From Asparagopsis taxiformis (lineage: Eukaryota > Rhodophyta > Florideophyceae > Bonnemaisoniales > Bonnemaisoniaceae), in contig JALQPE010001740.1 in NCBI GenBank assembly GCA_030407315.1, forward strand, positions 1 to 64,000: a stretch of 64,000 bases of DNA, in the 5' to 3' direction. The notes beneath the pieces were generated by a model, which was not told the origin of the DNA, made no database searches, and saw nothing but the letters and a program-made list of their open reading frames with translations. Position numbers and translations under genes: made by a program. This document shows, in pieces, positions 61 through 16,322 of the stretch; position 1 is the stretch's first letter; each line of letters begins with the position of its first letter.

Positions 61-1343
61 TTATCCTGTGGTGCCACGCTGCTCCTCATCGGAAAACACA
101 TCACACCACGGACTTTGACACAGTACGTGTCGCACCAAGTCATTCAGCAGATCACTCTCGTCCCTGTACGAAGGTGTATACCACTGCAGATTCTTGATGA
201 TATAGCCCGGAGGGGTAGCAATATATCTTACACCGTTTTCGCTCCAAAGTGTCCCTTCTACCGGCTCTACCTCGATGGTACGTCCAGTCCAACGTCTCTG
301 CGTTTGTTCCGCTATAGGGTCCAGCTCCATAGTCTCGTTCTTGCACCACTTTGTCAGGTTTTCCTCAACCGCCCTAAGAACTCCAAGGTATTTCACAGGA
401 ATGGCTTTCTGTATTTTCGACTTACCGCCACAGTGATCACTGATTCTACCTGTTCTCGCAATTGCAGTAAGGCTGGCATTTTCCGCCTGCAGAGTTTTCA
501 CCTTAGCCTCCAACGCAACTATCTCCGTGGTGAGCGCCTTGTTTGCTATGTCCTGGCTAAACACTTTTTTTCCAGCTCCGCGATCTTCTTCTTCTGCGCA
601 TTGATGCGACTCGCCATTAAATCGATGGATTCCGGCGGATGCAACCTCTCTGCCCTCACCGTCCCCCCATCTCCCACGCTATCGGGATTATGATGTCCTC
701 CATCGGCAATAGCCTGACGTCGCGGGGGCGTTACGCGCATATTTGGCACCAATGACAGTCTGTTGTGACGAGGCCCGCACTCCGGCTGCTCTCTCCCCTC
801 AGTACCACCTGACCGCCGATGATAGTTGGCATCCTGTGAACGTTGCTCAGAAACAACATCCCTTGCCGCTATCCTCGGGTCCCTGACTGCATTACCTGCT
901 GGGGCTGATGTACTCGGCATAGTTGGCGCAGTGGGGGTCACAGCCTCCAGTGTCTCGCGAACCCCCGGCTGGGACTCCGTCTGCAGCACCTCCGCATCTG
1001 CCAACCCGGGAGGAACTACCTTTGCCATAGCACTCTGCCGCAATTCCAACATGTTTTGAGCCACTATCATGTCATCATCATGATGTTCACTGTCCCTGCG
1101 AGCACGCTTGCCTCGGTCAAGCCCCATCTCTCTCCGCGCCGTTCCTCCTTCCTCACTTTCTCGCTGCGGATCCCCAGTTCTGCGCCGGTCCGTCTTGCGA
1201 CTACCGGACCGCGGTTCAATGCTGCCGGTAGGCCCACACCGCTTCTTCGCACGGGATTGTCGGGCACTCGATACAGCAGCTGCTGACCGGTTTTTCTGGA
1301 GGCCCGGAGGCTTTGGAGCTTTCTTCGCAATACGCGGCGGCAT
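61..1343 (-). CDS. Coiled-coil protein split by a -1 frameshift (unknown function)
   Basis: Two overlapping minus-strand reading frames appear to be one gene. The upstream frame begins at ATG 1343 (MPPRIAKK...), is rich in Lys, Arg, Pro and Ser, and ends at a stop at 546 just after a heptad-like stretch (INAQKKKIAELEKK). The downstream frame (564 to 61, 167 aa) continues the same coiled coil (ALTTEIVALEAKVKTLQAE) and then a globular tail with Trp- and Tyr-rich segments (NLQWYTPSYRDE). Reading -1 at the A-run at 571-565 joins the two halves into a protein of about 427 aa. The basic start suggests a nuclear protein, but I recognise no family. It lies left of the MTase-SET gene, in the same direction, with repeat copy A in its upstream region. 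Alternatives are a plain one-base indel (pseudogene or sequence error) or a programmed frameshift. Confidence 0.5.
564..570 (-). other. Slippery heptamer A AAA AAG at the ORF junction
   Basis: In the zero frame the minus strand reads CTG GAA AAA AAG TGT. This places the canonical X XXY YYZ -1 slippage heptamer A AAA AAG in the right phase, 15 bases before the zero-frame stop codon. Slipping back one base gives GTG TTT AGC CAG, which is exactly the downstream frame. Just 3' lies a short imperfect stem (TGTTT-A-GC paired with GC-AAACA), which is weak and too close to the heptamer to be a convincing stimulator. The A-run of seven also makes a simple indel plausible. Confidence 0.45.
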
Positions 1344-1514
1344 AATGAAGCCTTCCCGGAAGCGATGGAAGGATTGAGTTGCACGAGATACAAAAAAATT
1401 GCTGTATAGTGTCGGTAACCACAACGGTCTGCGATGAACGTTCAGGTCAGGTCAAGTACCGGAGAATACGCCAACAGCCCAGATTGTATACGGTAGGCAG
1501 TCATCAACAGTATT

Positions 1515-1784
1515 TAATGAGGTACAATTACAGCTGTCGAGCTAGGCCGCGAGCACCCCTATGTCCGGAAGACGTCCTGATTTGAATTAAAATTTGGGCT
1601 ATTCTCAAAAACATGCACATGTGAACATGTTTTGAGATGGGGGTGTGCCGTACGGCACAATCGACCCGCTGAAATCGATGTTTTTTGCAATATTTTTTTC
1701 TGCCCTGAATTGTAGAATTTCTGGGCTGGACAGCAATGCAACTGAGCTGGACATCCACCGGGCGTCCATTTCAACTTGGTCTTG
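1515..1784 (-). repeat. Repeat copy A (inverted)
   Basis: The reverse complement of this stretch aligns with copies B and C. In order it shows a GGACxTCC-type start (TGGATGTCCAGCTC), a CAGCCCAGAAATTCTA block, an A-run, CATCGATTTC, the 16-bp palindrome, the hairpin, and an AATAGCCCAAATTTTAA end. It then continues, as in copy B only, through GGGGTGCTCGC and GACAGCTGTAATT. It lies between the 3' end of the MTase-SET gene and the start of the coiled-coil gene. Confidence 0.85.
1604..1659. other. Hairpin plus 16-bp palindrome in copy A
   Basis: The arms CTCAAAAACATG and CATGTTTTGAG (one base shorter than in the other copies) flank a ten-base loop holding the palindrome CACATGTG. At 1644-1659 is the perfect palindrome TGTGCCGTACGGCACA. 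Both structures recur in copies B and C. Confidence 0.8.
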
Positions 1785-2001
1785 TATTTTGCATCTGCAC
1801 GCATAACAGCAACCAAGCAGTCAGGTTCACTGCTCGGACGAAGTGCACCTAGAGTGTGAACGATTGGTTTTTGACAGGCGAGTACTGCTCAATAGGTTTC
1901 ACCCTGGACTAATGGTGGCTGGACATGCTGCATTATATGATATACTTCAACTCTGGAACGTAGCTTTATTTGTAGTCGAAATGAAAACATCTTTCGTGAC
2001 C

Positions 2002-5000
2002 CTAATTCCATGCTCTAAACGCTGTCCCATAATGAACGTAGAGCTCCTGCCCCGGACAGATATCGCGGATTGCACGTACTACGATGATCTTCGGATTTTC
2101 TAGGTCCTTCGCCTTGAGCTTCTTCCCCGTCGAACCGCTGCTGTAGTTCTCGACAAACTCGACGTTGGCCATCCGCCTGGTGTCTTCCGCCGGAGTGTCC
2201 TCACCTCGCAAATACCGCGGGTCGTTGATGAACTGCGCCGAACAGAACGGAGCCGGAACAATCCAAATTGGATGCTCGATGTTTTCGTCGTCCTCCGCTG
2301 TTGCATACAGCTTGATGGCATACATCAAGAATGTTTCCTTCGTTATCGCCATGTGACCCTCTCCGTACGCGAACCTCATCGACTCCTTGCTCATATCAGA
2401 GTACACAACAGTTCCGTAGTATGCACATACTTCGTCGCCAACATTAAATGTCTGTTCAGCGAAGAGCCCTCTTCCTGCATTTGGATGCTTAATCAGCGAT
2501 GGTCGAACGCTCAATTTTTTCGCAACACAATCGTGTGCCCGCATCACGCGAGGGTTTTCAGTTTGCAACCAGCGGCGCAGGGAAGGTGGCCAATAATGTA
2601 CCGGTTTTTCCATGTGCTCGTGCGACGCAATCGACTCTGGGCACAGCTGCCAGAGGTACTGCCGAATATATTTCGGGAACCTCTGGTACAGGGGAAGGCC
2701 AGGTGGGGGTTCGATGATCCTGCGTTCCCTCTGTGTATGCATCGTGACAGAGGGGGACGCCAAGAACTTCTCAGCACTCTGTTTCGCTTCTGTCGTGACC
2801 CTCATGTCAGTGTTGTTTGAAAGAATTACACGTGACATGAGAGCACACAGCTTTGGAAGCGATCGTGCCACACACAATTTGTCCATGTCACTGCCGGCGA
2901 AAACACGGTGCTCAGGCAAGCTCATAGCTGCTTTTCCCGTTGCGAAAGTGCCAGAGAATGGATCGACAACAATATCACCAGGCTGTGAATGCTGGCTGAT
3001 CAACTCCATCATGAGAGCGACGCTCTTCTGCTCTGCACGAACTCTGACCGTAGCACCGGTTGTGCTCCTTGTTCGCCACACCATCTCATTCGAATCGATG
3101 GCGGGCATATTGATGGTGACGTTGCACCACGCCGGGTACGTGCCGTCCATGTATCCGTGGTTCCTATAGGCCACCATCTCGCTTCCGGTCTTGAACGGAA
3201 CACCTCGCTTCCAGAAGTGGATAGCGACCTCTGCCATGTTCATGCGTTGGTACCTCTTCCGCCCCGGCATTTGATAGAGGTGCCCAGGTAGTCGGACAAA
3301 CAACAGAGGTACCTCGTCAACGAAGAAAACTGAATTCCGAACGACGTCCTCCTCCTCCTCCTCATCCGCACTTTCTTCGCCACTGTGCTGCGATGCTTCG
3401 GAGTCCGAATTCATGGACGTAACCTCTTCTTCATCCGACCCGTCATCACTGGCAGCAGCATCGGTTGGGCCTTCTGACTGCGGTCCTTTGTACGTTTCCA
3501 AGTAATGGAACCATTCGTAGAACTGCAAAACGGAGCAGAACACGATGCCGTGGCCACCGGGGCGCAACAGCTCGTCAAACACTTCGATGCTAGCCTGCAT
3601 ATCTTCTGCAGTTAGCCTGTCGTACGAAGAGTTGGAATCGTTCCTCTTACGACGAACATTGTAGGGCGGATCAGTCAGAATAAGCTGAACGTTGCCCGTG
3701 ATGGGCACGTGTTCTCGGCTCTCGTCGGCACTGACCAAATCTTCGAAAGGGACGTCGTACACCCGGCAATACTGACTCATTTTCGAAAGAAAGTCCTTTG
3801 CGAGAGCCTGCCCTTCACTTTCCTGCTCTTCTGTCGCATGGGGTGACGGTGACGGGGGAGACGGCCCTTGGGCAGTAAGACTGGTCCTCCCAGGTCCAAG
3901 TTGAAGCCTGGTTGTGTGTCTTGTCGACGGAACCAAACCTCTCCCTCCTGTGTTGCGACGAGTGGGAGTGTTATCAACCGGCTTGGGGACCTTTTCTGCG
4001 TCCGCGGCTTGTGGTGCCGGGCGGAGGACAGCCATAACGTCTTCGTCGAGGGTGTCAAAGTACGCTGGCAGCTTGTCCGGATTTCCGCTTGACAAGTATA
4101 TTTCCAGCGCCCCCCAGCGGTCGGACTCCGGCCAGGTGTACAGGTCCGGGTTGACGATAAGAAACTGCAACCGGTCGAAGAACTTCCTCACAAGGTCCCT
4201 AAATGCACTGTGCTGCGCACTGGTTCTTGTCTCTACTTTTCCACCATATCCATCAGGATGAGATAGGGGAGCTTTGTCGTGGTAGAGATCTAGCTTCTGC
4301 TCCATCGGTGCGAATAGACCTTCATCGAGCACGTCAAACCAATGCTCACTGCTGTCGAAAATGATGTACGGCGCCATCAATTCTTCGAAGCTGGAAAACT
4401 TTGCGGCGAAGGCCACATCGGTCCAAGCATGGTATAAAACTTGAACCACGTAACAAGCTCGATTAGTGCTTTTTTTCCGATGGGCTGGGACGCGTGCGGC
4501 TTCGTTCCCCTCTTCGGCCACATCGCCTATTCGGCGACGCGGCAGGTTCTTGTTGTGATTTCGGATGATAGACAACGCTTGGAAATACATCAATACCTCG
4601 AACGTTTCCGGTGGAGCAAGAACGAAGGCGCTTGGTTCCCCGCGCTGCGGCGCCTGTAGTGGCGAAGGAAGCATGTTACATCCAATAAGGAAGGTCTGCG
4701 GCACGATCCCAGAAAGGATGCAGTGCTCAACCCATTGCCCGATACGCTCATCCTGTCTTGAAAACTCGGCAATGGGTAATGCCAGACGAACAATCTGCTT
4801 GGCTCGCTCAACGTTCATCTCTGCCATGACGATTTCGGCGACATCCGCCTCGACTCCAGCATTTTTCGAACGACCGCTGAAGGACATGCTGAGTCGACCT
4901 TGCAGCGCCAGAAATTGTTCTTCCGTGCCCTGCGCAACCCAAGCGCCAAGGTCCGCGTATGTGAAACCTCCCGGCTTGTCCGTCAAGTCTGCGAAACTTG

Positions 5001-5193
5001 AGTGGGCGAATAAATCCAGCAAGAGGCGGAGGAAGTCTTTGCCAGCGAGAGTAGTTTCGCGGGCGGCGCGACCTACGTTTCGACGTGTACCCATGTCACT
5101 AGAATCCTCCCAAGGGCTAGCAGGTTCGCGCAGAATTGGCACGGTTGCGTCGTCAACGATCGGATTGCTGTTGCGCCTGCGCTTATTCGTCAT
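2002..5193 (-). CDS. N4C/N6A DNA methyltransferase fused to a SET domain
   Basis: A 1063-aa protein from ATG 5193, chosen because it is the first in-frame ATG giving a basic, nuclear-type start (MTNKRRRNS). The N-terminal half is unrecognised. Motif IV DPPY is at residues 508-511. An acidic Asp/Glu/Ser insert follows, then a segment resembling the conserved region before motif I, and motif I DPFSGT at about 744-749. The order IV-target region-I and the DPPY sequence place it in the beta-class amino methyltransferases (N6_N4_Mtase family), which are usually bacterial or phage enzymes. From about residue 900 to the end is a SET-like domain with GRGLFA (about 907), FINDPRY, ANVEFVEN and a terminal PGQELYVHYG. 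SET domains normally methylate protein lysines, so the fusion suggests coupled DNA and chromatin methylation; this is inferred. It is transcribed away from the ParB-dioxygenase gene across 865 bp. Confidence 0.85.
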   Translation of the reverse strand: MTNKRRRNSNPIVDDATVPILREPASPWEDSSDMGTRRNVGRAARETTLAGKDFLRLLLDLFAHSSFADLTDKPGGFTYADLGAWVAQGTEEQFLALQGRLSMSFSGRSKNAGVEADVAEIVMAEMNVERAKQIVRLALPIAEFSRQDERIGQWVEHCILSGIVPQTFLIGCNMLPSPLQAPQRGEPSAFVLAPPETFEVLMYFQALSIIRNHNKNLPRRRIGDVAEEGNEAARVPAHRKKSTNRACYVVQVLYHAWTDVAFAAKFSSFEELMAPYIIFDSSEHWFDVLDEGLFAPMEQKLDLYHDKAPLSHPDGYGGKVETRTSAQHSAFRDLVRKFFDRLQFLIVNPDLYTWPESDRWGALEIYLSSGNPDKLPAYFDTLDEDVMAVLRPAPQAADAEKVPKPVDNTPTRRNTGGRGLVPSTRHTTRLQLGPGRTSLTAQGPSPPSPSPHATEEQESEGQALAKDFLSKMSQYCRVYDVPFEDLVSADESREHVPITGNVQLILTDPPYNVRRKRNDSNSSYDRLTAEDMQASIEVFDELLRPGGHGIVFCSVLQFYEWFHYLETYKGPQSEGPTDAAASDDGSDEEEVTSMNSDSEASQHSGEESADEEEEEDVVRNSVFFVDEVPLLFVRLPGHLYQMPGRKRYQRMNMAEVAIHFWKRGVPFKTGSEMVAYRNHGYMDGTYPAWCNVTINMPAIDSNEMVWRTRSTTGATVRVRAEQKSVALMMELISQHSQPGDIVVDPFSGTFATGKAAMSLPEHRVFAGSDMDKLCVARSLPKLCALMSRVILSNNTDMRVTTEAKQSAEKFLASPSVTMHTQRERRIIEPPPGLPLYQRFPKYIRQYLWQLCPESIASHEHMEKPVHYWPPSLRRWLQTENPRVMRAHDCVAKKLSVRPSLIKHPNAGRGLFAEQTFNVGDEVCAYYGTVVYSDMSKESMRFAYGEGHMAITKETFLMYAIKLYATAEDDENIEHPIWIVPAPFCSAQFINDPRYLRGEDTPAEDTRRMANVEFVENYSSGSTGKKLKAKDLENPKIIVVRAIRDICPGQELYVHYGTAFRAWN

Positions 5194-5513
5194 AATGGAA
5201 TGAGTGGAAAATTCGGTACAGGATGGCGACCGCTCGGCGAGACAGTCAAATTTGACGACGTATCTCGTGACGTTTGCACTCTTTCGTGAGGAACACTGGT
5301 TGATATCGAACGGAACAGAGTATACGGGTACACAGCACTGGAAAGGTCTTGAAACCTGTAACCGGTGTATGTAATAAGTTGTGACGGATACGTGGTAGAG
5401 AAAGTTTTTTAAAAAGATTGTGATTCCCTGTCTTTGGGTGTTGTACTGCACGGCCGCCAGTCACATAGGTTGTCACACGTGCATCACGCCTACCAGGTTA
5501 GCGACATCCGGAC

Positions 5514-5785
5514 GGCCACTGGACGTGGGGATGTCCAGCTCAGATGCATTGCTGGCCAGCCCAGAAATTCTACAATTTCGGGCAGAAAAAAATATTGCAA
5601 AAAACATCGATTTCGGCGGTCGATTGTGCCGTACGGCACACCCCCATCTCAAAAACATGTTCACATGTGCATGCTTTTGAGAATAGCCCAAATTTTAACT
5701 CAAATCAGGGTGTTCCCCGGATAAAGGGGTGCTCGCAGCCGCCCCAAAAGCCGCCTAGCTTGACAGCTGTAATTTTAACACATTA
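5514..5785 (+). repeat. Repeat copy B
   Basis: Same orientation as copy C and inverted relative to A. It lies in the intergenic region between the divergent MTase-SET and ParB-dioxygenase genes. Its downstream extension (GGGGTGCTCGC, then CTAGCT and GACAGCTGTAATT) matches the outer part of copy A. Its first about 20 bases diverge from A, C and D. Confidence 0.85.
5625..5681. other. 16-bp palindrome plus hairpin in copy B
   Basis: TGTGCCGTACGGCACA is at 5625-5640. The hairpin arms CTCAAAAACATG (5648-5659) and CATGCTTTTGAG (5670-5681) carry one mismatch. Confidence 0.8.
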
Positions 5786-6057
5786 CACATCAAGGACACT
5801 GCCTGCTTCACGCCACCTCGTCAGGTTTCGAGAGCCCGACTCGGGCCCGTTCCGAACGGACACTCACATCTCGATTGCCTCTTTTGCATTCCAGCGGTCA
5901 CGATAGGTGTGTACCTAACAAAATTTCGGTTCTATTGTGTTATTATTTCCAGCGATTGGCGTTCACGACCATTCTTCAACGCAACGTGAAACATACCATC
6001 CACATCACTCCAATACGTCAACGTCAACCATCTCTTTTCCTTTCCAACTCAACAACC

Positions 6058-9000
6058 ATGGCGGATACGCATTTCAGCAGTTTGTTTTCAACGGTTTGCG
6101 GCGATCAAGTGAGCGCGTCAGCAGAGTCGCGCGGACTCAAGCGCGGCGTCGATGTCAACTTGCTTGCGGACGTGGACGGTGCGGCTGTGCATATTGGGAC
6201 GGCTTCGGTGAGCACTGCTGGTGGCGATGTTGGCCTTCCGCGCACGCTGCACAACCACAAGCTGCCGGAAACCGAGGAGGCCGACTACATCGTCGTGCGC
6301 AACATTGCGACTAAGGACAAGTTCAAGGAACTCCCGTTCCCGTACATGTTTGATGGCGCCGAGGGACCGCCGGAGACGATGGGTGGAGCATACGCCGCGG
6401 CGTTTTACCCTTGGGATACTCGGATGATGCGCCCCGCTGCGGAGGATGGCCCTAGCGACATTCGTACCCCTGCTGCAGCGTCAAACTTCAACGCAGCGAC
6501 AAACCAGGCCAGCTCGGGACGGATGCCCAGTACCGGTCCAGCAGGCGAAATCACTGGTTCGGGGGGTACGAAGCATCCAGCACGCTCCATCCCGGTTTCG
6601 GGAGGCACGAAGCGCCCTGCTCGCTCTGCCAGAGCCTCCAGTGGAGGCACGAAGCACCCTGCTCGCTCCAACGTCACCGAAGCTACTACGCAGGATGTAA
6701 CCGAGGTGGACGACGAACCGGAGGTGGCGGAAAGCATTCGTGAGCAGCAGGGGACGCAAATTACGGTGCCGAAGTTTGTGACGTCGGATTACGTCGGACA
6801 AGGAGCGACTGTGTTGGTGAGGCAGCTAGTGGAACCGGTCGTGACCCTTCGGGATGTGAAAGAAGACCACGTGGAGGACCTGCGCAACAATATGTTGGCG
6901 GTGGGGTATGTGAGCTCTTCGCGTATCACTGTGACGGTGCTGAGGTCGCAAAACACGCATCTGTCCGCCGCCACGCGTCTGTTCCTGAATGGCAAATTCC
7001 ATGCCAATGCGAACGTGACCGTGATCGACGGACTGCATCGTCTCAATGCTATGCATAGCATTGCGGATGACTTCACGCGCCTCACCCGTATGCACAGAAC
7101 CAAGCTGCCACAGGACGCAAACCGCTTGCGCTGGGTTACTCAGCCTCTGGATGTGTACTACCTTCGCCGCAAGGACGACAGTGATCTTCAGCCTCATGAG
7201 ATCATCCACAAGAGTGCAGAGTCGAACCATACGACTGGGACGCAACTGACGGAGCGCTCCCTGGTTCGAATCTTGTCGTCCATCCAGCAGTTCATCCGTA
7301 CGATTGCTGTTGCAAATAACGTGGAAAACGCTGGCGACTTGCGTGAGTCTGATGTCATCCGAACATTGTTCGAGGCGCAGTTCATGGGGATGATGAATTC
7401 AACGAACACGGCCCGGCGGTGGACGCATTTGGCTATAGCAACGCTGAAGCATCCTGTTCTCGACGAAGTGTTGCGTGAGCTGAACAATTCCGAGCGCCGC
7501 AACGAGATTGGGATAACGCACCTGGACCACAAGATAGTGCGCGAGTTGCTGGAAGAAAACTTTGTCTTCGTCTTGCGTGGTCTTTCGGAGTACTTGAACC
7601 CTGCTCATGGTGGACGTCCGGATGGACGCTTTGACGTGAACGACTTCTATACATACGTCCGTCGTGTGACTGCAATAGCAAATTCTCTGTACGCTGCGTA
7701 TGGGCGCCCAAAGAGTATTATGCGCAAGTCATTTCTGAGCACAGAGATGGCAATTGGGTCGGTTAAGCAGCCGAAGGAGTTTCAATGGCATCTCACCAAT
7801 GCCATTGCAATGTATAGAGGGGACGACCGGAGCAGTGAGGTTCGAATGCGACGGAGAACCACGCGCTTACAGGATTTGGAAACGAACTTGAAAGAGTTTT
7901 TCAATCCGACATTGAAGAAGGAGACTAAGGCTCGACGCAAACGCCGCCCTTCTGCTGCCAATGTGAGACTCACTCACAAGAAGCAGCGGAATGTCGAACA
8001 TGAGCCTGCTTCGCATGGCATCCGCCGCCGTTCACAGCGACTTCGCTCGACGGGGAGCACACGCCTCGAGGAAGAACAGCCGGTTGTGGTACAACAATCC
8101 GCCGGGGAAGAAGAGCAGGCCGTTGTTGATAAACCCATCGATCAACAACAAGCCACTGCTTCCGGTGATGAGGTTGACGAAGACTCCGCCCGTTCCCCCG
8201 ATTCTGCCGTTGAGATTGTCCCCCAAGATAACCAACGTGCTGGTGCGACTCCCTCCAACCAAGAATCTGTCCATAACGTTTCGGACGAGGAAGAAAACAA
8301 CAGTGCAGATGAGGGCCATGTCAAAAGCAAGGGGGTCCGCGAAGTGACAATTACACTCACTGTTCCGGAAGGAGTCGAAGTCGATGAAGACGGTTACATC
8401 GTTCGTGACTCTCCTTCTGAAGACGACCTCCTGTTCGACGACCGTATGCCATCTCTTCCTGACGATTTCGAAGCCAAAGACCGAGCCGAAGGGCATCATC
8501 TGGCGCAGCGTCCCGCGGACGTCATCGCATCGGTGAGGGTTGGCTGTCTGCCCCCGATTGAGCTCAGGTTGTTATTGGAGACTGTGGAAATCGATGAGGA
8601 GGGCAGAGAGGTGAGGTATTTGAAGCAAGTGGCGATGGACCCTGTGTTTGAAGGGCTGCATATTCCGGAACAACATCGGGCTCGTCATCTTGTTTTCGAG
8701 ATCGAGACCATCTATCCGATGTTTTTCGCAGCGTGGAAGATGGCTGCCAAGGCGATGTGTGAGCCTACATCGACGTTTCTACCCTCGAGGCTGGACTTCG
8801 CTCAGGTTGCGCGAATGTGTACCAACTGGAAGGATTCGTATGAGGCCGGCACTGGTATGGCGTACTTCCACAATTGCCGAACGGAAATCAACGAGCGAGG
8901 GTATACGGTGATGCACAATTTCGCGGATGTAAGCTACCTCGATGCGTCGGACAAGTTCCCATTTGACTTGGGTCTCATGGAAGAAATTCCTAGCCAGGAA

Positions 9001-9981
9001 TTGTTTCGGTACTTCTTGGGAACATGGGAGGGTGAGGAGGTGCACAAGGACCCTGGGAACCGGCAGCTGTGGAGTCCCATTGTCAATACGGGGGACGATG
9101 AAACAGATGAGAAGAACCGGAATGAGGGGAGGGCTCGCTTCACGTCTACGCGCCACTGCCTGGTTGACTATGCCGAGAACGATGAGACGCATATCGACCG
9201 GTTCAAGTTTGTGACGCGGCGAGCCCTGCTGGATGTGTGGTTGGGAATCCTTGTCCGGCTGATAGGGCTGGAGGAGTGCGGTTTACCGGGAGAAAAACTT
9301 GTCATGCCGGCATCTGGGGGACGGTTTTTGATAACGGGAAAGGGGTGTCCTCGGCAGGTCCCACACAATGATTTCCCTGTTCCTCGCGACCGCAAAGATC
9401 AACTTCCGGGTTACTTTGTTATTGCCAACGGAGATGACCCATTCCCTATCTGGGTGTGTCCAGGGTCCCACAAGTACGTCTTTTCCAAAGCGCTGGAATT
9501 AGATATGTACGCCAAGACGATGAAGCTGAAGAAGGTAATCGTTCCGCCACGTTCAGTCTTCATCGGTCACGGCCATGTACAACATGCCGGGGCAGGGCAT
9601 GTCGACAGAGTTGTGTCACACACGACAACGAGGTATCACACGTATTTCAGGAATGCGTCGTATCCGATTCCCGAAAATGTTTCGTTTGGTTTCATCAGGC
9701 GGTTGGGATTCGAAGAAGAAGTAATACCCAATGCTCCGCGCCGGTCTGCCAGGCAAAGTCAACCGGCACCTGTCAATGTTCGCCACAAGACAGTTGTTCC
9801 CATCCCGGTCAAGAAAGATCGTAGGCCGAAGACAGGGCAGCTCGGAATGATGCGGATGAAGACGACAGAACCTCGCAAGCCTATAGCCTACACAATTAGT
9901 GGGGTCCCGTTGGTGCCTATTCTGCCGGGAGATCCTGATTATAGTGGGGACGAAGAGGAAGAACAATTTTCCGACGGCTAG
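6058..9981 (+). CDS. ParB-like domain protein with C-terminal 2OG-Fe(II) dioxygenase-like domain
   Basis: A 1307-aa protein starting at ATG 6058 (CAACCATGGCG context). Residues about 165-205 hold three copies of SGGTK(H/R)PARS. About 245-420 resembles a ParB/sulfiredoxin-fold domain: a strand-helix start (VTLRDVKEDHVEDLRNNM), a core IDGLHRLNAMHSI near 321, then SNHTTGTQLTERSL like the ParB helical part. A long basic then acidic linker follows (about 600-810). The C-terminal third resembles phytanoyl-CoA-type dioxygenases: HND iron motif at H1103/D1105, CPGSHKYVF, a downstream His cluster (near H1176) and TTTRYHTYF, where an Arg could bind 2-oxoglutarate. ParB-like domains often accompany DNA methylases in phages, and 2OG dioxygenases include DNA and histone demodifying enzymes; which substrate applies here is unknown. 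The neighbouring divergent gene encodes a DNA methyltransferase. Confidence 0.75.
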   Translation: MADTHFSSLFSTVCGDQVSASAESRGLKRGVDVNLLADVDGAAVHIGTASVSTAGGDVGLPRTLHNHKLPETEEADYIVVRNIATKDKFKELPFPYMFDGAEGPPETMGGAYAAAFYPWDTRMMRPAAEDGPSDIRTPAAASNFNAATNQASSGRMPSTGPAGEITGSGGTKHPARSIPVSGGTKRPARSARASSGGTKHPARSNVTEATTQDVTEVDDEPEVAESIREQQGTQITVPKFVTSDYVGQGATVLVRQLVEPVVTLRDVKEDHVEDLRNNMLAVGYVSSSRITVTVLRSQNTHLSAATRLFLNGKFHANANVTVIDGLHRLNAMHSIADDFTRLTRMHRTKLPQDANRLRWVTQPLDVYYLRRKDDSDLQPHEIIHKSAESNHTTGTQLTERSLVRILSSIQQFIRTIAVANNVENAGDLRESDVIRTLFEAQFMGMMNSTNTARRWTHLAIATLKHPVLDEVLRELNNSERRNEIGITHLDHKIVRELLEENFVFVLRGLSEYLNPAHGGRPDGRFDVNDFYTYVRRVTAIANSLYAAYGRPKSIMRKSFLSTEMAIGSVKQPKEFQWHLTNAIAMYRGDDRSSEVRMRRRTTRLQDLETNLKEFFNPTLKKETKARRKRRPSAANVRLTHKKQRNVEHEPASHGIRRRSQRLRSTGSTRLEEEQPVVVQQSAGEEEQAVVDKPIDQQQATASGDEVDEDSARSPDSAVEIVPQDNQRAGATPSNQESVHNVSDEEENNSADEGHVKSKGVREVTITLTVPEGVEVDEDGYIVRDSPSEDDLLFDDRMPSLPDDFEAKDRAEGHHLAQRPADVIASVRVGCLPPIELRLLLETVEIDEEGREVRYLKQVAMDPVFEGLHIPEQHRARHLVFEIETIYPMFFAAWKMAAKAMCEPTSTFLPSRLDFAQVARMCTNWKDSYEAGTGMAYFHNCRTEINERGYTVMHNFADVSYLDASDKFPFDLGLMEEIPSQELFRYFLGTWEGEEVHKDPGNRQLWSPIVNTGDDETDEKNRNEGRARFTSTRHCLVDYAENDETHIDRFKFVTRRALLDVWLGILVRLIGLEECGLPGEKLVMPASGGRFLITGKGCPRQVPHNDFPVPRDRKDQLPGYFVIANGDDPFPIWVCPGSHKYVFSKALELDMYAKTMKLKKVIVPPRSVFIGHGHVQHAGAGHVDRVVSHTTTRYHTYFRNASYPIPENVSFGFIRRLGFEEEVIPNAPRRSARQSQPAPVNVRHKTVVPIPVKKDRRPKTGQLGMMRMKTTEPRKPIAYTISGVPLVPILPGDPDYSGDEEEEQFSDG

Positions 9982-10249
9982 ATAGCTTAACAACTACTAC
10001 TTTGGTAAACAATTATCGACAATATAATCATCTCCTTTATCACTTTCAATCTATGAACCTAGTATAATGTACTTCCGTTCCATGCTTTCAAACTAGATTG
10101 TCCATTCCCTCGTGGGTTGGAGCATGATTTCCAGGACGATTCCCTCACATCTCTAGACTCGATGGTCTATGCTAGAAATGGCAGAACAATTGGGCTTGTA
10201 CGTGCTTCATCGCCTACTTGCTTCCGGTAATGGGTGGACGTGCACGATA

Positions 10250-10460
10250 CACGATCAACCTGAAATGGACGTCCGGTGGATGTCCAGCTCGATTGCACTG
10301 CTGGCCAGCCCAGAAATTCTAAAATTTCGGGGAGAAAAAAATTGTAAAAAATCATCGATTTCGGCGGGTCGATTGTGCCGTACGGCACACCCCCATCTCA
10401 AAAACATGTTCACATGTGCATGTTTTTGAGAATAGCCCAAATTTTAATTCAAATCAAGGT
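10250..10460 (+). repeat. Repeat copy C
   Basis: Begins CACGATCAACCTGAAATGGAC and runs through the shared blocks to AAATTTTAATTCAAATCA. Beyond about 10460 it no longer matches A or B. It lies 269 bp past the stop codon of the ParB-dioxygenase gene; the 268 bases between hold no other feature. Confidence 0.85.
10374..10430. other. 16-bp palindrome plus hairpin in copy C
   Basis: TGTGCCGTACGGCACA is at 10374-10389. The arms CTCAAAAACATG (10397-10408) and CATGTTTTTGAG (10419-10430) pair perfectly over 12 bp around a ten-base loop containing CACATGTG. Confidence 0.85.
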
Positions 10461-10638
10461 GTCTAATTTGGCCACAACGGCCCCAGGAACCGACCGCCGC
10501 CCCGATCGGGGGCTATCACTGGCTTCTATAAGCACCAACTGTAAGCCAAAATCGCGTCTCACGAAGGGTCGATTTCAGGCTCAACACGTCAGGGACAGGT
10601 CTTGGTCCTTGTTTCATCATGGTCTCGCCCCACTCTCT

Positions 10639-10718
10639 CACGATCAACCTGAAATGGACGTCAGGTGGATGTCCAGCTCGATTGCATTGCTGGCCAGCCC
10701 AGAAATTCTAAAATTTCC
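10639..10718 (+). repeat. Partial repeat copy D
   Basis: Matches the first about 80 bases of copy C nearly exactly (CACGATCAACCTGAAATGGAC through CAGAAATTCTAAAATTTC). It then diverges before the palindrome and hairpin. Likely a truncated copy. The following stretch to 11059 shows no gene. Confidence 0.75.
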
Positions 10719-11059
10719 GAAAAATCAATTTGGTGGCCCAGCATCTCCCGTGCCGAAAATTCCCGCACTCACTTCTGGTATACGTCTAGACGTGTTTCGC
10801 ACTTGTACGCATCAGGGAAGGCGTCACGGAAGGTTGAGACTACGCTACATGTGTACCGCGTCGTCTGAAATAGCGAGTAGTGTTTGTTGTATAGTTTTGG
10901 AGTATGCGTCTAGTGGTTTGTAAAGCTTGCAGAACGGGATAGGGATGTGGGTGGCCCTTTTTTATGAATACATGAATACAAATATTCAGGGTTGACAAAG
11001 CGGAAAGGCATACGCTCATAGATGTTTGAGATTGCATAGTGGAGAAATATTTTCATCGA

Positions 11060-11990
11060 AATTTACATGGAGCTGATGGAGGTTTTAAGGATGAGGTATG
11101 AGAGGAAGAAATTTCTTCTGTGGTATGAGGATGTGTTCTGTGGGGGGGTGGATGGAATCTTGGGATGGTACAGGGGGAGGTGGAAATGTACGGAGTGCGG
11201 GTTTAGATTGGAGTGTGATTCGGAGAGGAGTGCCGACGAGCATATTATGGGGATTGGGGAGACGCTGCGGGGTGTTGGGGTAGTGAGGGCGGAGGAGGTA
11301 TTTAGGTGGGACCGTAGGAGGGTGCGGTTGAAGGCCCCGAGAGGAGGGGGTTTTAGGAAAGTGAGGAGAAAGAGGCGGGAAGGGGGGTGGCGTCTGTTCT
11401 GGCTGTGGTGAGTGGGGATGTGATGGAGAAGAAGGGGGTTATTGTATTTGGGGAGGAAGGGGAGTGGGAGGATGGGTGCGAAGTGGGGGGTTGATATGTG
11501 TTTCAGAGCGGGGAGGTTTCTGGGGAGACGGCGGGGGAGCGTGGGCCGGTGGTGGTGGTGTATACAGTATCGAAGATGCGGATGGCGTGGGGGGCATGTA
11601 GCAGGTGAGGGAGGGAGGGGTGGAGCAGGTCGGGTACGGGATGGGGAGTGAGAGGTTTTCGAAGAGTAAGCTGCAGGGGAAGTTTGTGGAGAGGGCGAAG
11701 GAGAGGGGTTGAAGGTAGAGGAGAGAGGGTATTGAAGAACAATACGTTTCAAAGGTGATGGGGGAGAGCATGGTCGAGGAGATAGGGGGTGTTTTGCCCT
11801 ATTCTGAGGTAGTATGAGGACTGGTTATACGAAATCTGTACGGTAGAGCAGAAAAGTAGGTATGGAATGGAGGTGTGCACCGTGGAAGCGGGGATAGGTA
11901 GCTGAAAATGCGTGCTAGAGTGGTATTGGGGGTGTTTGAGGTACAGTACGGGGGAGGTGAGCACCAACTGGAAGGGGGTGTGAGCGAGAG
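11060..11990. other. Strongly G-over-C skewed, C-depleted stretch
   Basis: The plus strand is dominated by G, A and T with long runs such as GTGGGGGGGTGG and very few C. Long open frames exist on both strands simply because the composition removes stops; the minus-strand ones are proline/serine/histidine low complexity. A plus frame at 11067-11411 contains a Cys-x2-Cys...His pattern (WKCTECGF...DEH) that might be a remnant of a transposon zinc knuckle. I do not call a gene. Confidence 0.5.
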
Positions 11991-12203
11991 GATGAAAAAA
12001 TTAAAGACAAAATTGGAGTCGACCGACAAGGAAAAATAGAGTGGTCGCCGTGATGGATGCGGACATCCATGTCGAGCACGGCGGCAGAAATTTCTGGGGT
12101 CGAAATTTTTGAATTTCTGAACCGGCGCCCGTCCTAGGTGGACATAGACATGGCGGAAGTCCATCCCGAGGGGGACATCCGTGGTACTAGAAACAATGAA
12201 TGT

Positions 12204-12329
12204 CGCCCTAGTAATACTAGACGTACTAGACCGCATGGACGTCCGGTTCTAGGCGGACATCCAAAAATACTGGAGAACATGGACGTCCGCCTAGTAATAC
12301 TAGGTGTACTAGAGTTTGTGGACGTCCGC
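12204..12329. repeat. Palindrome-rich 42-bp direct repeats
   Basis: Two imperfect copies of a unit of about 42 bp (12204-12245 and 12288-12329). Each contains the palindromic CTAGTAATACTAG, a second CTAG and the palindrome GGACGTCC. The surroundings (12050-12345) repeat GGACATCC and CCTAGG motifs. The same GGACGTCC motif opens repeat copy C, so a distant relation is possible. The stretch 12346-12689 shows nothing further. Confidence 0.6.
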
Positions 12330-12689
12330 GTCCATTTCCGAGAACACAGACGGATCCCCAATTGGAGATCGAAACGGAGCAGCGGGTATCCGGTAAGGGA
12401 ACTGCCGCCGCCGTTTAGTTGTAAGTTAAACGACCACGGTCGAATGATTTGGAACCGAAACGATCTACCTTTATTGTAGCTTAGTGGTCAGTCCGTTTAG
12501 ACCTTAAATGGTCAACGAGACTGCCGGGACAGGACCAGGACCAATGGTCCCGGTCCGGCGTCTAATGGACCTTTTGGGGTGTTTATGCGGCCCAGGGGCC
12601 TTACAGAGTAAGCTGCTACGTTGCTACGTGTAAACTAATAGAAACGGCTGGGTATAACGTACACGTGCGCAACTGTAAAGGACGGATCG

Positions 12690-13215
12690 GCCATCACGCA
12701 CACGTGTGCAACTAAGCGCGCTTAACTAATACACGTTGCAATTCCGCGGGGGGGTCCAGCGCAAGCCATCGGGCCCGGTGCCAATGCAAGGCGACACGCG
12801 CCCATTCGCCCTTGGGCGACATCTGCACGCGACCTTTCTCTTGCGCCCTTTCTGTCCTCCTGAGAGGCATCCCTTCACGCCCCTTTACCGCATCATACGG
12901 GACAAGTCCCACAAGAATCTTCCCGCTCGCACACCTGTGCGACTAATCGCGCCTATATCGCTACACGTTGCACACTCGCCGAAGGGTCCCGCGCAAGCAA
13001 TGTGGCCCGGTGCCATCGCAAGGTGGCACGCGCCCATTCGCCCTTGGGCGACAATTCCTCTGCCACGTCACCGCGGCTCATGGGCTAATGCCGCGACTCT
13101 TCGTGGCCAATTTTATTGCCGAACACCACTCACGCTCGCGAGCGTCACCCCCACGCGACCCTTCTCCAGGCGCCCTTTCGCTATTCAATACGGGACGAGT
13201 CCCACAGTAATCAGG
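12690..13215. repeat. Two imperfect tandem copies of a 230-290 bp unit
   Basis: The unit starting near 12690 and the unit starting near 12925 share CACACxTGTGC, TACACGTTGCA, a GCGCAAGC block and GGCCCGGTGCCA. Both also share CGCGCCCATTCGCCCTTGGG and a terminal ACGGGAC(A/G)AGTCCCACA. No coding potential is convincing. Confidence 0.65.
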
Positions 13216-13260
13216 GATCTAATCGAAGATATGAGATCTCGGACAAGATATAAACATTCC

Positions 13261-14140
13261 TTAAGACAGATTAATAACATGCGAAACACAGCGTACTTGT
13301 TGGATACCATATTGAGTATAATTATCCAATTTCATACCAATCTTGTCATTCAACAGTCGGATACCTGAGACAATATCACTTCCGTTGTCAGTTGTGATGG
13401 AACGAACTTTTTGCAATAACCCAATTTCTCTATGAACTCCCACAGAAGAGTCGAAGCTGCTTCTCCTGTATGTGGTGTTTGAAACCGACTAAAATCGAGG
13501 ACGCATTCTTTCAAAGACCATTCAGAGTCAATCCAATGAACAGTGATCCCCATGTATCCCTTAAATGTCCTTGAATACCAAGCGTCTGCTGTCAAAGACA
13601 GGGTTCCAGGAACTTGTTGTAGTACAGACTTGAGAAAATTTCGACTTTCCCGCTGGGTCTGTATCACCCGTCTCTGTATAGTATGACGCGAGGGTACTGA
13701 GTACTGATCATTTAAATTTCTAAAAAGAGCAGTGAAGGCTTTGTTCGCAACAACGGAAAATAACCGCCCATTGGCACAACAGTTTTGTTTTTTTCGCTCT
13801 TGTAGCTCTTCACGAGGAACTATGGATCCAGTGCGTAGGTTACCATCATTACAAATCGTCATTTGACGATTGTCAAGCAGGAAATAATGTTTCGTTTTGC
13901 ATGGCGACGAAGGGTACTGACGCCAATGCGGTCGCTGAATTTGCAATCACAGAGTAAACATTTTGTCTCCCCTTTTGCAGATGAAGATGCAGGCACTTGT
14001 TTAAAGTACTCCCAAACGTCTCTTTTCTGCCATTTTGAACTGGGCTGACTGCATCTAGAATCATGTGCGCTCGCAGTTTGGTTGCTTGGTGACGACCCAA
14101 TAGAATGAGAGTGTGCTGAGTTTTCAATGTTTCGGCTCAT
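13261..14140 (-). pseudogene. Broken hAT-family transposase
   Basis: Three minus-strand fragments in different frames read in order as one transposase. Fragment 14140-13859 has a BED-type zinc finger (CLLCDCKF...LRRHAKRN). Fragment 13946-13350 has the hAT core start (LSLTADAWYSRTFKGYMGIT...WSLKECVLDF). Fragment 13443-13261 has SITTDNGSDIVSGIRLLND followed by VRCVSHVINL. Frameshifts lie near 13880 and 13440, and the C-terminal hAT dimerisation region is absent because tandem repeats take over left of 13220. The element is therefore dead. Confidence 0.85.
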
Positions 14141-14439
14141 GTAGAGGGTTAGATCGGAGGGTGTGGTGAATCCAATGGCGCTAGAGCCTACTCGAGAAAA
14201 TTTTCGAGTTGAATGCGTTTAGTTTACTTTCAAACGTTTTCGATAAGTGTCAATGAATACCACGGTGAGTTGTGAACAGATCTTTGAACGCACGGTTTTT
14301 AATGTTGGACATGATGTTGAAATCCATGACACCATGTTAAACCGCTAGAATGCTTTGATCCGATCAACTTGATCGTAGCACAAAAGGAAGAACGAGTGAG
14401 TTAGCTGAGTTGGCAATTCTGAATTTCGGATAGAGGTGA

Positions 14440-14733
14440 TCCGGACAACATGTTTCCTCTCTCTCCAGTCATAGCGGTCCGGACCGTCATTTAAAATTGA
14501 CATCAAGACCGGACCGGACTTCGATAACCTCGCCGACTTCTGACCTTTGATACCGATATGATTTGTCGAGCCGGACTACATTTTGGCAAGGCTTTCCAAG
14601 ACTGGAATGAGACTGTTTGTTGCCATCATGGACCAGTCGATATGGTATTTTCTCGCCTGGTCGCCTGGAGACTGGACCTAAAGACTGGTGACCGGTCCGG
14701 ACCGAACTGGACCGAGGACTGTGATCATCCCTA
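14440..14733. mobile_element. Right end of a hAT element (subterminal GGTCCGGACC repeats and TIR)
   Basis: Many copies of GGTCCGGACC/GACCGG-like motifs accumulate towards 14733. There the complement reads TAGGGATGATCACAGTCC (14716-14733), similar to Ac-type hAT ends that begin TAGGGATG. It lies upstream of the broken transposase, as expected for a 5' end. No left end was recognised. Confidence 0.6.
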
Positions 14734-15112
14734 AATGACAGTTCCGGATATCATCTTTGTCTTCCATCCGGCGCCATACATCCTGCGACACATGGAGATA
14801 GATGTCAGTTGTCTGGCAGGGGCGAGGACCCTGTTTCCGACAACTTGGCGACAATCAAGTGGTTTCACCATTGTTTGTGATTTCGGGAGTGCAATGGAGT
14901 TGTCGTGGTTTGCTGACGTGAAAATTAAAATTTAAGCATTCACTCTGCCCTGCCACACCATCAATCTCGCCGGCGAGTCTTCTAGTGGCAAAATTGGAGC
15001 TAATCGTTTATTTTTTCAATTTAAACTAGGGTGGTAAAAAGTGGTCTCATATGAGGCCACTTGTCCGATAGACACTAGAACAGCCAAAATTTGGAATTTA
15101 AGGACCAAAAGG

Positions 15113-15635: not shown

Positions 15636-16322
15636 ATGATGCCATTGCCACAACGAGCTCATCTGAAACGATGTGCCAAGTCGAAATACGATAGCTACAG
15701 CGCTCGCGAAGGCGATGCGCATTGGATGCGTATCATGCAAGCAAAGGAGAATCAGTGGCGCTTCATGAATGTGATCGCTTTGCACGAGATGAACATGCTT
15801 GAACACCATGCATGCGCCGAGTTGAATGCATTGTCCGCGCACCTAGACCTTGTGGAAGTGCATGCGTCTCAGAAAACAGCCCTTGTGGCTGCGTGTCGTG
15901 CATATCGCGCCCAACAGATTTTCCACGCCGTTGTAAAACCGGTGTTGAGCGGACTTACCGATCCGCTGGTGCAGCAACAGCACGAGTATCAGAGGGCATG
16001 CAATACGCTGTTTCAGATAGCGCGGGACATTAGATTACATGAGGCTGCGTGTTTAGTTTCAGGTGGAATGCTCAGTGAAGAATTGAAGAACTTTCGACGA
16101 GCAGTAGTGCAGCACGAACGAGTTGCAATGCGGACGCAATTGACGGAAATATGCGATGCATTGGAGACGCTGGCGGGATTTATATCATTGGAGGAAATGA
16201 ACGCTATGATTTGTACGGCCAAGTCGCTGCGGGACGCCGCCGAGGCCAAGGAGCGAGAGAAGAGTATGAAGAAAGTGGCGCGCGCCAGAGATGCCAAAGG
16301 GAAACCGTTTCATGATATTTAA
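15636..16322 (+). CDS. Hypothetical helical protein
   Basis: A 228-aa protein from ATG 15636, the first ATG after the last in-frame upstream stop. It is almost entirely charged and alpha-helical in appearance, with heptad-like stretches, for example around residues 45-75 and 185-222. The tail is basic (REKSMKKVARARDAKGKPF). No signal peptide or membrane segment is visible and I recognise no family. It stands alone between the hAT debris and the RWP-RK gene. A short ATG-initiated frame (MPSDIDAPFDSA) ends just before the start and could act as a small upstream frame. An unseen upstream exon is possible. Confidence 0.45.
   Translation: MMPLPQRAHLKRCAKSKYDSYSAREGDAHWMRIMQAKENQWRFMNVIALHEMNMLEHHACAELNALSAHLDLVEVHASQKTALVAACRAYRAQQIFHAVVKPVLSGLTDPLVQQQHEYQRACNTLFQIARDIRLHEAACLVSGGMLSEELKNFRRAVVQHERVAMRTQLTEICDALETLAGFISLEEMNAMICTAKSLRDAAEAKEREKSMKKVARARDAKGKPFHDI

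Follow-up and report, generated by a model that had tools for sequence, protein, structure and literature searches.

Methyltransferase-SET and ParB/dioxygenase-like genes of the red alga Asparagopsis taxiformis as probable cargo of a giant DNA transposon with a Plavaka-type transposase

The window, that is, the whole stretch of 64,000 nucleotides analysed here, stands at the start of a contig of 353 kb from the red alga Asparagopsis taxiformis (genome of 141.5 Mb in 3156 contigs), and it carries two divergent single-exon genes, which are long open reading frames (ORFs) at 2002-5193 on the minus strand and at 6058-9981 on the plus strand, accompanied by copies of a repeated module. An initial annotation had described the pair as a DNA writer with a SET domain beside a ParB-like protein with a dioxygenase domain, and had proposed that the repeats A (inverted) and C (direct), with B between the genes, frame a mobile cassette at 1515-10460 of phage or plasmid descent and without a known transposase. 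The two genes and the three repeats are real, a partial fourth copy can be added, and the pair is indeed mobile, but within a larger unit whose ends are fixed and for which target duplications and empty sites exist; A and C are not its ends. The window genes very probably belong to a DNA transposon of giant size and recent amplification, which combines a Plavaka-type transposase with epigenetic cargo. The features of the window copy are the following.

75-12352, no strand: the portion of the transposon that the window contains, from homology with the C192 and C619 copies
2002-5193, minus strand: methyltransferase-SET fusion gene, single-exon ORF, 1063 residues from the likely ATG
2881-3690, minus strand: methyltransferase domain, with TDPPYN (DPPY at 3661-3672) before DPFSG (2950-2964)
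2026-2475, minus strand: SET domain (PF00856)
6058-9981, plus strand: ParB-like/dioxygenase-like fusion gene, single-exon ORF, 1307 residues
7027-7041, plus strand: DGLHR, invariant in 4/4 sequences
9364-9633, plus strand: putative 2-His-1-carboxylate triad, HxD at 9364, distal His at about 9583 and Arg 16 residues on, at about 9631
1545-1820, minus strand: module copy A, palindrome GTGCCGTACGGCAC at 1645
5501-5740, plus strand: module copy B, palindrome at 5626
about 10214-10470, plus strand: module copy C, palindrome at 10375
10639-10717, plus strand: partial fourth module copy, from repeat comparison
12185-12328, no strand: subterminal repeats, GGACGTCC and TACTAG
12319-12352, minus strand: right terminal inverted repeat, ending ...GAGAACACAGACG, where homology is lost in 8 copies
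61-1424, minus strand: coiled-coil-like gene, truncated in the window, overlapping frames 61-564 and 546-1424
11067-11411, plus strand: small basic ORF of 114 codons with one CxxC, a putative gene from its translation

The extent of the element emerges from its other copies. C192 and C619 align, interrupted by small gaps and at 94-99% in the main pieces, to window 75-5709 and 5520-12352, and in both of them homology extends to the left beyond window 75, where the window copy is broken off and the first 74 bases of the contig are unrelated. The C192 copy reaches 6.1 kb further left, to 40200, and is complete at C192:40200-60968 (20,769 bases, about 20.8 kb); the window copy is without the left 6 kb, which includes the transposase. 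On the right, the end falls at about window 12352 in 8 compared copies, the window's among them, with unrelated flanks. The terminal inverted repeats of C192 measure 34 bp, with 32/34 bases identical between the two ends, and the element ends read CGTCTG...CAGACG. With at most one mismatch, the terminus pattern has 1342 and 1358 occurrences on the two strands, against 0 and 0 in the control, which for terminus, marker and module-core counts alike was the reversed sequence. A 2-bp direct target duplication is present in 7/10 paired ends (chance of at least 7, 4e-7); these target duplications lie at the outer ends of the larger unit.

Empty sites were sought for three insertions (C20, C52 and C90) by joining the flanks minus one duplication. 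The joined flanks of C20 match C192 and C619 without interruption over 295/295 bases at 99.3%; in fact C20:597-10640 is a 10-kb member of the family that has landed in the coiled-coil gene of a further copy. Those of C52, an element of 20.0 kb that carries the transposase and dioxygenase markers, are uninterrupted at C222, C2042 and C211 (295, 291 and 295 bases; 96-97%). Copies bounded by the 34-bp inverted termini are thus inserted whole, duplicating 2 bp of the target. A tail-to-internal junction was also noticed at C2505:64758-64763, where the right end is followed, 5 bases on, by the internal left part of another copy.

The transposase that the initial annotation missed lies in the part absent from the window copy. 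The left part of C192, the one copy tested, encodes a Plavaka-type transposase, which matches PF18759 at E 2.4e-23 over profile positions 19-318 of 325 and scores 83.3 bits, the cut-off being 26.3. The CMCT clade is marked by C(2)C and H(3-4)H motifs that lie between the second D and the last E; a CxxC is present in the C192 protein. All 47 scored genomic copies (best of 2485 candidates) are free of stops. From left to right, C192 carries the transposase, the coiled-coil-like gene (minus), the methyltransferase-SET gene (minus) and the ParB/dioxygenase gene (plus), and the order closes with the small basic ORF (plus), whose sequence was taken from the window. The coiled-coil-like gene is longer in C192, with frames of 539 and 298 codons, and its profile matches are weak, all below cut-off.

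Markers for the three genes along the unit (at most two mismatches) occur about a thousand times each in the genome, with 1001 for the transposase, 964 for the methyltransferase, 907 for the dioxygenase and 0 in each control. If full length, 907-1001 copies amount to 13-15% of the genome, which is an upper estimate because many copies are shorter. The L6 assembly of the species was reported at 142,472,235 bp in 3308 contigs, with DNA transposons at 33.5% (PMC12115072). In the assembly analysed here, contig C469 has 11 of the 13 matches to phycobilisome families, which fits a red-algal plastid but could also come from another eukaryote with phycobilisomes or from contamination. Pairing of markers was studied among the best-matching 100 places listed per marker, using 71 of the 100 for the methyltransferase; those from C276:79830 on and the exact ones on C1617 and C1618 were excluded, because the companion marker lists end at C276 and C279. 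Among these, 28 of 41 transposase-methyltransferase pairs show a preferred spacing of 6.3 kb, and within 12 kb of the 71 methyltransferase markers lie a transposase marker in 40 cases, a dioxygenase marker in 37 and both in 19.

The writer with a SET domain is confirmed by Pfam matches of the window protein to N6_N4_Mtase (E 1.2e-14) and SET (E 2.3e-6). A protein database search gave 23 proteins, namely P0004, 98% identical and probably of the same species as the window, and 22 distant relatives that are 22-34% identical to the window protein in the alignment; N6_N4_Mtase is found in 24/24 aligned members and SET (PF00856) in 20/24, T-PP and R-EQK are invariant and TDPPYN is nearly so. A DPPY motif before the cofactor motif is the beta-class order, and the profile matches DpnA, CcrM, RsrI and MboIIA in PDB, adenine-specific beta-class enzymes being the best. 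From this motif order and these matches N6-adenine is the likeliest predicted product, N4-cytosine being possible. The SET part of the profile gives a weak match to EZH2 in PDB (E 1.3e-5). No internal stop occurs in the 40 scored genomic copies (best of 4530 candidates).

In the protein of 6058-9981, which has three relatives (34% identity over 30-37% of the query stretch), DGLHR is presumably a ParB-like signature, and from motif rules we take HxD, the distal His and the Arg to mark a putative Fe/2-oxoglutarate enzyme; HxD is kept in 4/4 sequences, and the three that extend far enough also keep the distal His and the Arg. No TET/JBP domain was matched in Pfam at E 1 in any of the four members. 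The relative P0003 weakly matches the phage ParB phrog_1033 (E 0.031), a match absent for P0001 and for the window's own protein. Furthermore, the longest contig is given as 15,726 bases both for P0002 and for the methyltransferase relative P0013, and this shared figure suggests that the two genes are linked in another genome too. Copies of the dioxygenase gene were gauged by the marker count and by its 3-prime coding part, in which a stop occurs in 2/25 copies and gaps in 6/25.

Each module carries the palindrome GTGCCGTACGGCAC, found six times in C192, three times in the window copy and nowhere in window 13-64 kb; module repeat pairs of 64-138 bases are 80-97% alike, with just 62% in one 79-base pair. 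Copy C as query returned 3477 first-look candidates in the genome, of which the 40 scored match over at least 255 bases at 95-100%, and the 29-base module core (at most one mismatch) occurs 8597 times genome-wide and never in the control. The initial annotation had reasoned that repeats scattered without link to the genes would speak against it. That objection applies in part. Among 30 loci fetched by module match, 26 run on into the adjoining 3-prime part of the dioxygenase gene and four (L018, L019, L020 and L028) are without this part, from which some modules appear to lie in other or truncated elements; modules also occur in an element without genes. L018, L019 and L020 (on C2027, C2026 and C479) have only a 728-base piece in common with the element (window 9892-10619), with equal bounds and at 95.5%, and are perhaps another repeat family built round the module.

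An element without genes was found as well. The element at C14:6193-17321, 11 kb long, shares the termini and has four modules arranged as inverted pairs, and the 5 kb read in it (10000-15000, L110) contain no ORF of at least 150 codons and no homology to the genes; it is a gene-less derivative, and as it retains the modules, these may act in cis for mobility too. C12:264414-275483 and C11:21831-33817 resemble it in module order. Module A has the same direction as the coiled-coil gene, B as the dioxygenase gene and C as the small ORF, and this arrangement suggests that the modules could be promoters. In C119, the segment with the methyltransferase gene is inverted, with breakpoints in two inverted modules. 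Same-strand pairs, as in C119, make up 9/41 transposase-methyltransferase and 16/38 methyltransferase-dioxygenase pairs among the markers listed, and this marker order suggests that a sizeable minority of copies is inverted in the same way.

Within the dioxygenase 3-prime coding part, compared in 25 of the 30 loci (five with less than 90% of the stretch covered were excluded), the synonymous differences (pS) are 0.023 and the nonsynonymous (pN) 0.0069, a ratio of 0.30; for the methyltransferase gene, compared among the window, C192 and C619 with L040 excluded (coverage below 30%), pN/pS is about 0.33. This coding part is 97.6-99.3% identical to the window and two downstream stretches are 93-98% identical, in loci chosen as best module matches, hence with old copies under-represented. 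To judge from these substitution patterns, the family looks young and its methyltransferase and dioxygenase genes look constrained. CpG observed/expected is 1.01 in the element and 1.02 across window 16-64 kb; transitions at CpG in the coding stretch are 0.0035 per site against 0.0047 at other C, and CpG transversions are somewhat higher, at 0.0073 against 0.0039. With this ratio and unraised transitions, a 5-methylcytosine footprint was rejected.

Several observations weigh against the reading of the element as a single transposon with epigenetic cargo. A target duplication was not found in 3/10 end pairs (C11, C12b and C88), and the joined flanks of C90 matched nothing among the loci compared, a genome-wide search not having been made. 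Thirteen of the 71 methyltransferase markers are without either partner marker within 12 kb, and the dioxygenase gene, open in the window, is broken in C192, which is the only complete copy read. For the ParB and dioxygenase parts, motifs are invariant in the four aligned sequences, but apart from the weak phage-ParB match of P0003 these parts are without Pfam, NCBIfam or PDB profile support; structure models from four-row alignments, with predicted local distance difference test (pLDDT) values of 46 for the ParB part and 34 for the dioxygenase part, were unusable, and fold searches with them gave no supporting fold. CpG being neither depleted nor raised in transitions, nothing indicates 5-methylcytosine silencing in the host. 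Finally, the termini, with ..CAGACG or a near variant as the right end in 8 copies and CGTCTG..CAGACG in 10 (8 of them chosen by pattern), fit neither published Plavaka group.

As to function, anti-silencing by self-marking is the best-supported proposal, and we infer it at roughly even confidence. The extra genes would mark the element's own chromatin: the methyltransferase-SET fusion would write DNA N6-methyladenine and a histone-lysine mark, the ParB/dioxygenase protein would bind the element, perhaps at the palindromic modules, and oxidise methyl groups there, and host silencing would then fail. The modules would be the cis sites, probably promoters, and recombination between inverted modules would have flipped the methyltransferase gene in one subfamily. 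A bolder version, in which we place little confidence, is a self-made epigenetic compartment: the ParB-like protein would load on parS-like module palindromes and carry the dioxygenase along, the methyltransferase-SET protein would couple adenine and histone marks, the thousand copies would share one state, and inversion of the writer gene would change its promoter-region partner. An alternative, which we regard as unlikely, gives the two enzymes a role in controlling transposition instead of countering silencing: methyl marks on adenines of the termini would distinguish replicated copies from those not yet replicated, in the manner of Dam on Tn10. The enzyme is predicted to be adenine-specific, there is no CpG-methylation footprint to escape and GGACGTCC repeats are frequent at the ends, though they occur in the modules as well; however, the fused SET domain implies a chromatin target and the recognition motif of the methyltransferase is not known. 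It seems very unlikely to us that the inversion between modules switches the methyltransferase gene in a programmed way: the breakpoints of C119 do lie in inverted modules and both marker orders are frequent, but orientation is tied to allele, since inversion is seen in 7/7 copies of known orientation that have the commonest bit score, treated as a single allele, and in 0/4 of other alleles (C279, C2663, C2088 and the window), so that a single inversion followed by amplification is enough.

Regarding the unit and its source, the cassette 1515-10460 as such has next to nothing left to commend it; A and C are mutually inverted, but the 8 compared copies end at about window 12352, C192 and C619 extend to the left of A, homology spans window 75-12352, and termini, duplications and empty sites all belong to the larger unit, whose shared outer ends refute it. 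Hardly more credible is an endogenised virus or phage-type module that merely holds the repeats. The methyltransferase matches phage families (phrog_67, E 1.7e-16) and P0003 weakly matches a phage ParB, but the transposase and ends are those of a DNA transposon and a scan of the five larger genes or frames showed no viral hallmark; in 50,697 phage records nothing matched the dioxygenase gene at E 0.01 and the methyltransferase had a sole match spanning 51 residues, and viral contigs yielded no relative. A phage origin of the gene pair was rejected on these records and contigs, and the phage or plasmid descent suggested earlier thus finds no support in them, plasmids not having been searched. 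In 84,980 species genomes, only one (L070) of the 38 loci among the matches listed matches nearly the whole methyltransferase-SET protein, the other 37 matching just parts of the methyltransferase region. It is a 3,475-base contig in a Moorena metagenome-assembled genome, whose main ORF is the nearly full-length gene; probably it is a stray eukaryotic contig in a cyanobacterial bin, and on these matches a bacterial home for the fusion is unlikely.

Some further observations concern the right part of the element and its surroundings. The 3-prime part, window 10001-12000, has a strong GC skew (+0.35). Just beyond the element, at 12730-13053, lie two 92-base direct repeats, 232 bases apart and 84% alike; the minus-strand ORF at 13350-13946, with the sequence LTADAWYSRTFKGYMGITVHWID, has no Pfam match, and we take it to resemble a hAT transposase fragment, and a 228-codon ORF on the plus strand at 15636-16322 has a sub-threshold QWRF match (E 0.002).

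DNA transposons with TET/JBP or SET genes are known already, and Iyer and Aravind have reportedly written on adenine methylation and on TET/JBP. If the assignment proposed here is true, one enzyme, present in about a thousand similar copies, joins a predicted DNA adenine methyltransferase and a SET domain, and DNA-adenine-to-histone cross-talk becomes testable in a eukaryote; the 22 divergent relatives suggest that this fusion is not a one-off. A transposon with this cargo pair was not found in the open-licence literature, by titles and abstracts among the matches listed, and the main text of Kojima (2025), in the parts considered here, has no mention of 'red alga', 'Rhodophyta' or 'ParB' (PMC12730594).

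In those same parts, Kojima (2025) reports TET/JBP genes as cargo of Plavaka in fungi and of other transposons, refers in the introduction to SET genes in HarbingerS and MuDR families, and notes that CcTET, of the TET/JBP-transposon group, also oxidises N6-methyladenine (PMC12730594). With the fungal Plavaka (PlavakaA and PlavakaB; CMCT clade) the red-algal element shares the PF18759 transposase, the 2-bp target duplications and, in some Plavaka families, epigenetic-enzyme cargo (PMC12730594). However, the Plavaka termini are TGT..ACA (PlavakaA) or CATCA..TGATG (PlavakaB) instead of CGTCTG..CAGACG, the hosts described are fungi and the cargo is TET/JBP, whereas here a red alga hosts methyltransferase-SET and ParB/dioxygenase cargo; the element is a separate lineage with a Plavaka-type transposase, neither PlavakaA nor PlavakaB. 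TET/JBP transposons (Kyakuja, Zisupton, Dileera, Plavaka and others) likewise join a DNA transposon to a Fe/2-oxoglutarate dioxygenase, here putative, but in the element there is no TET/JBP Pfam match, and the putative dioxygenase shares its protein with a ParB-like region and has a DNA methyltransferase as its partner. HarbingerS and MuDR also encode a SET histone methyltransferase, but they are other superfamilies and a fusion of SET to a DNA methyltransferase is not mentioned for them in the portion considered (PMC12730594). Viral mariner elements, for which methyltransferases were described by Bao and Jurka (2013), likewise hold transposase and methyltransferase in one element, but are of the mariner type with an endonuclease, SET or dioxygenase not being mentioned in the part of that paper considered (PMC3627910). 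DpnA, CcrM and RsrI, in turn, have the same order of DPPY before the cofactor motif and match in sequence, whereas the enzyme described here is cargo of a eukaryotic transposon, with a long N-terminal region and a SET domain.

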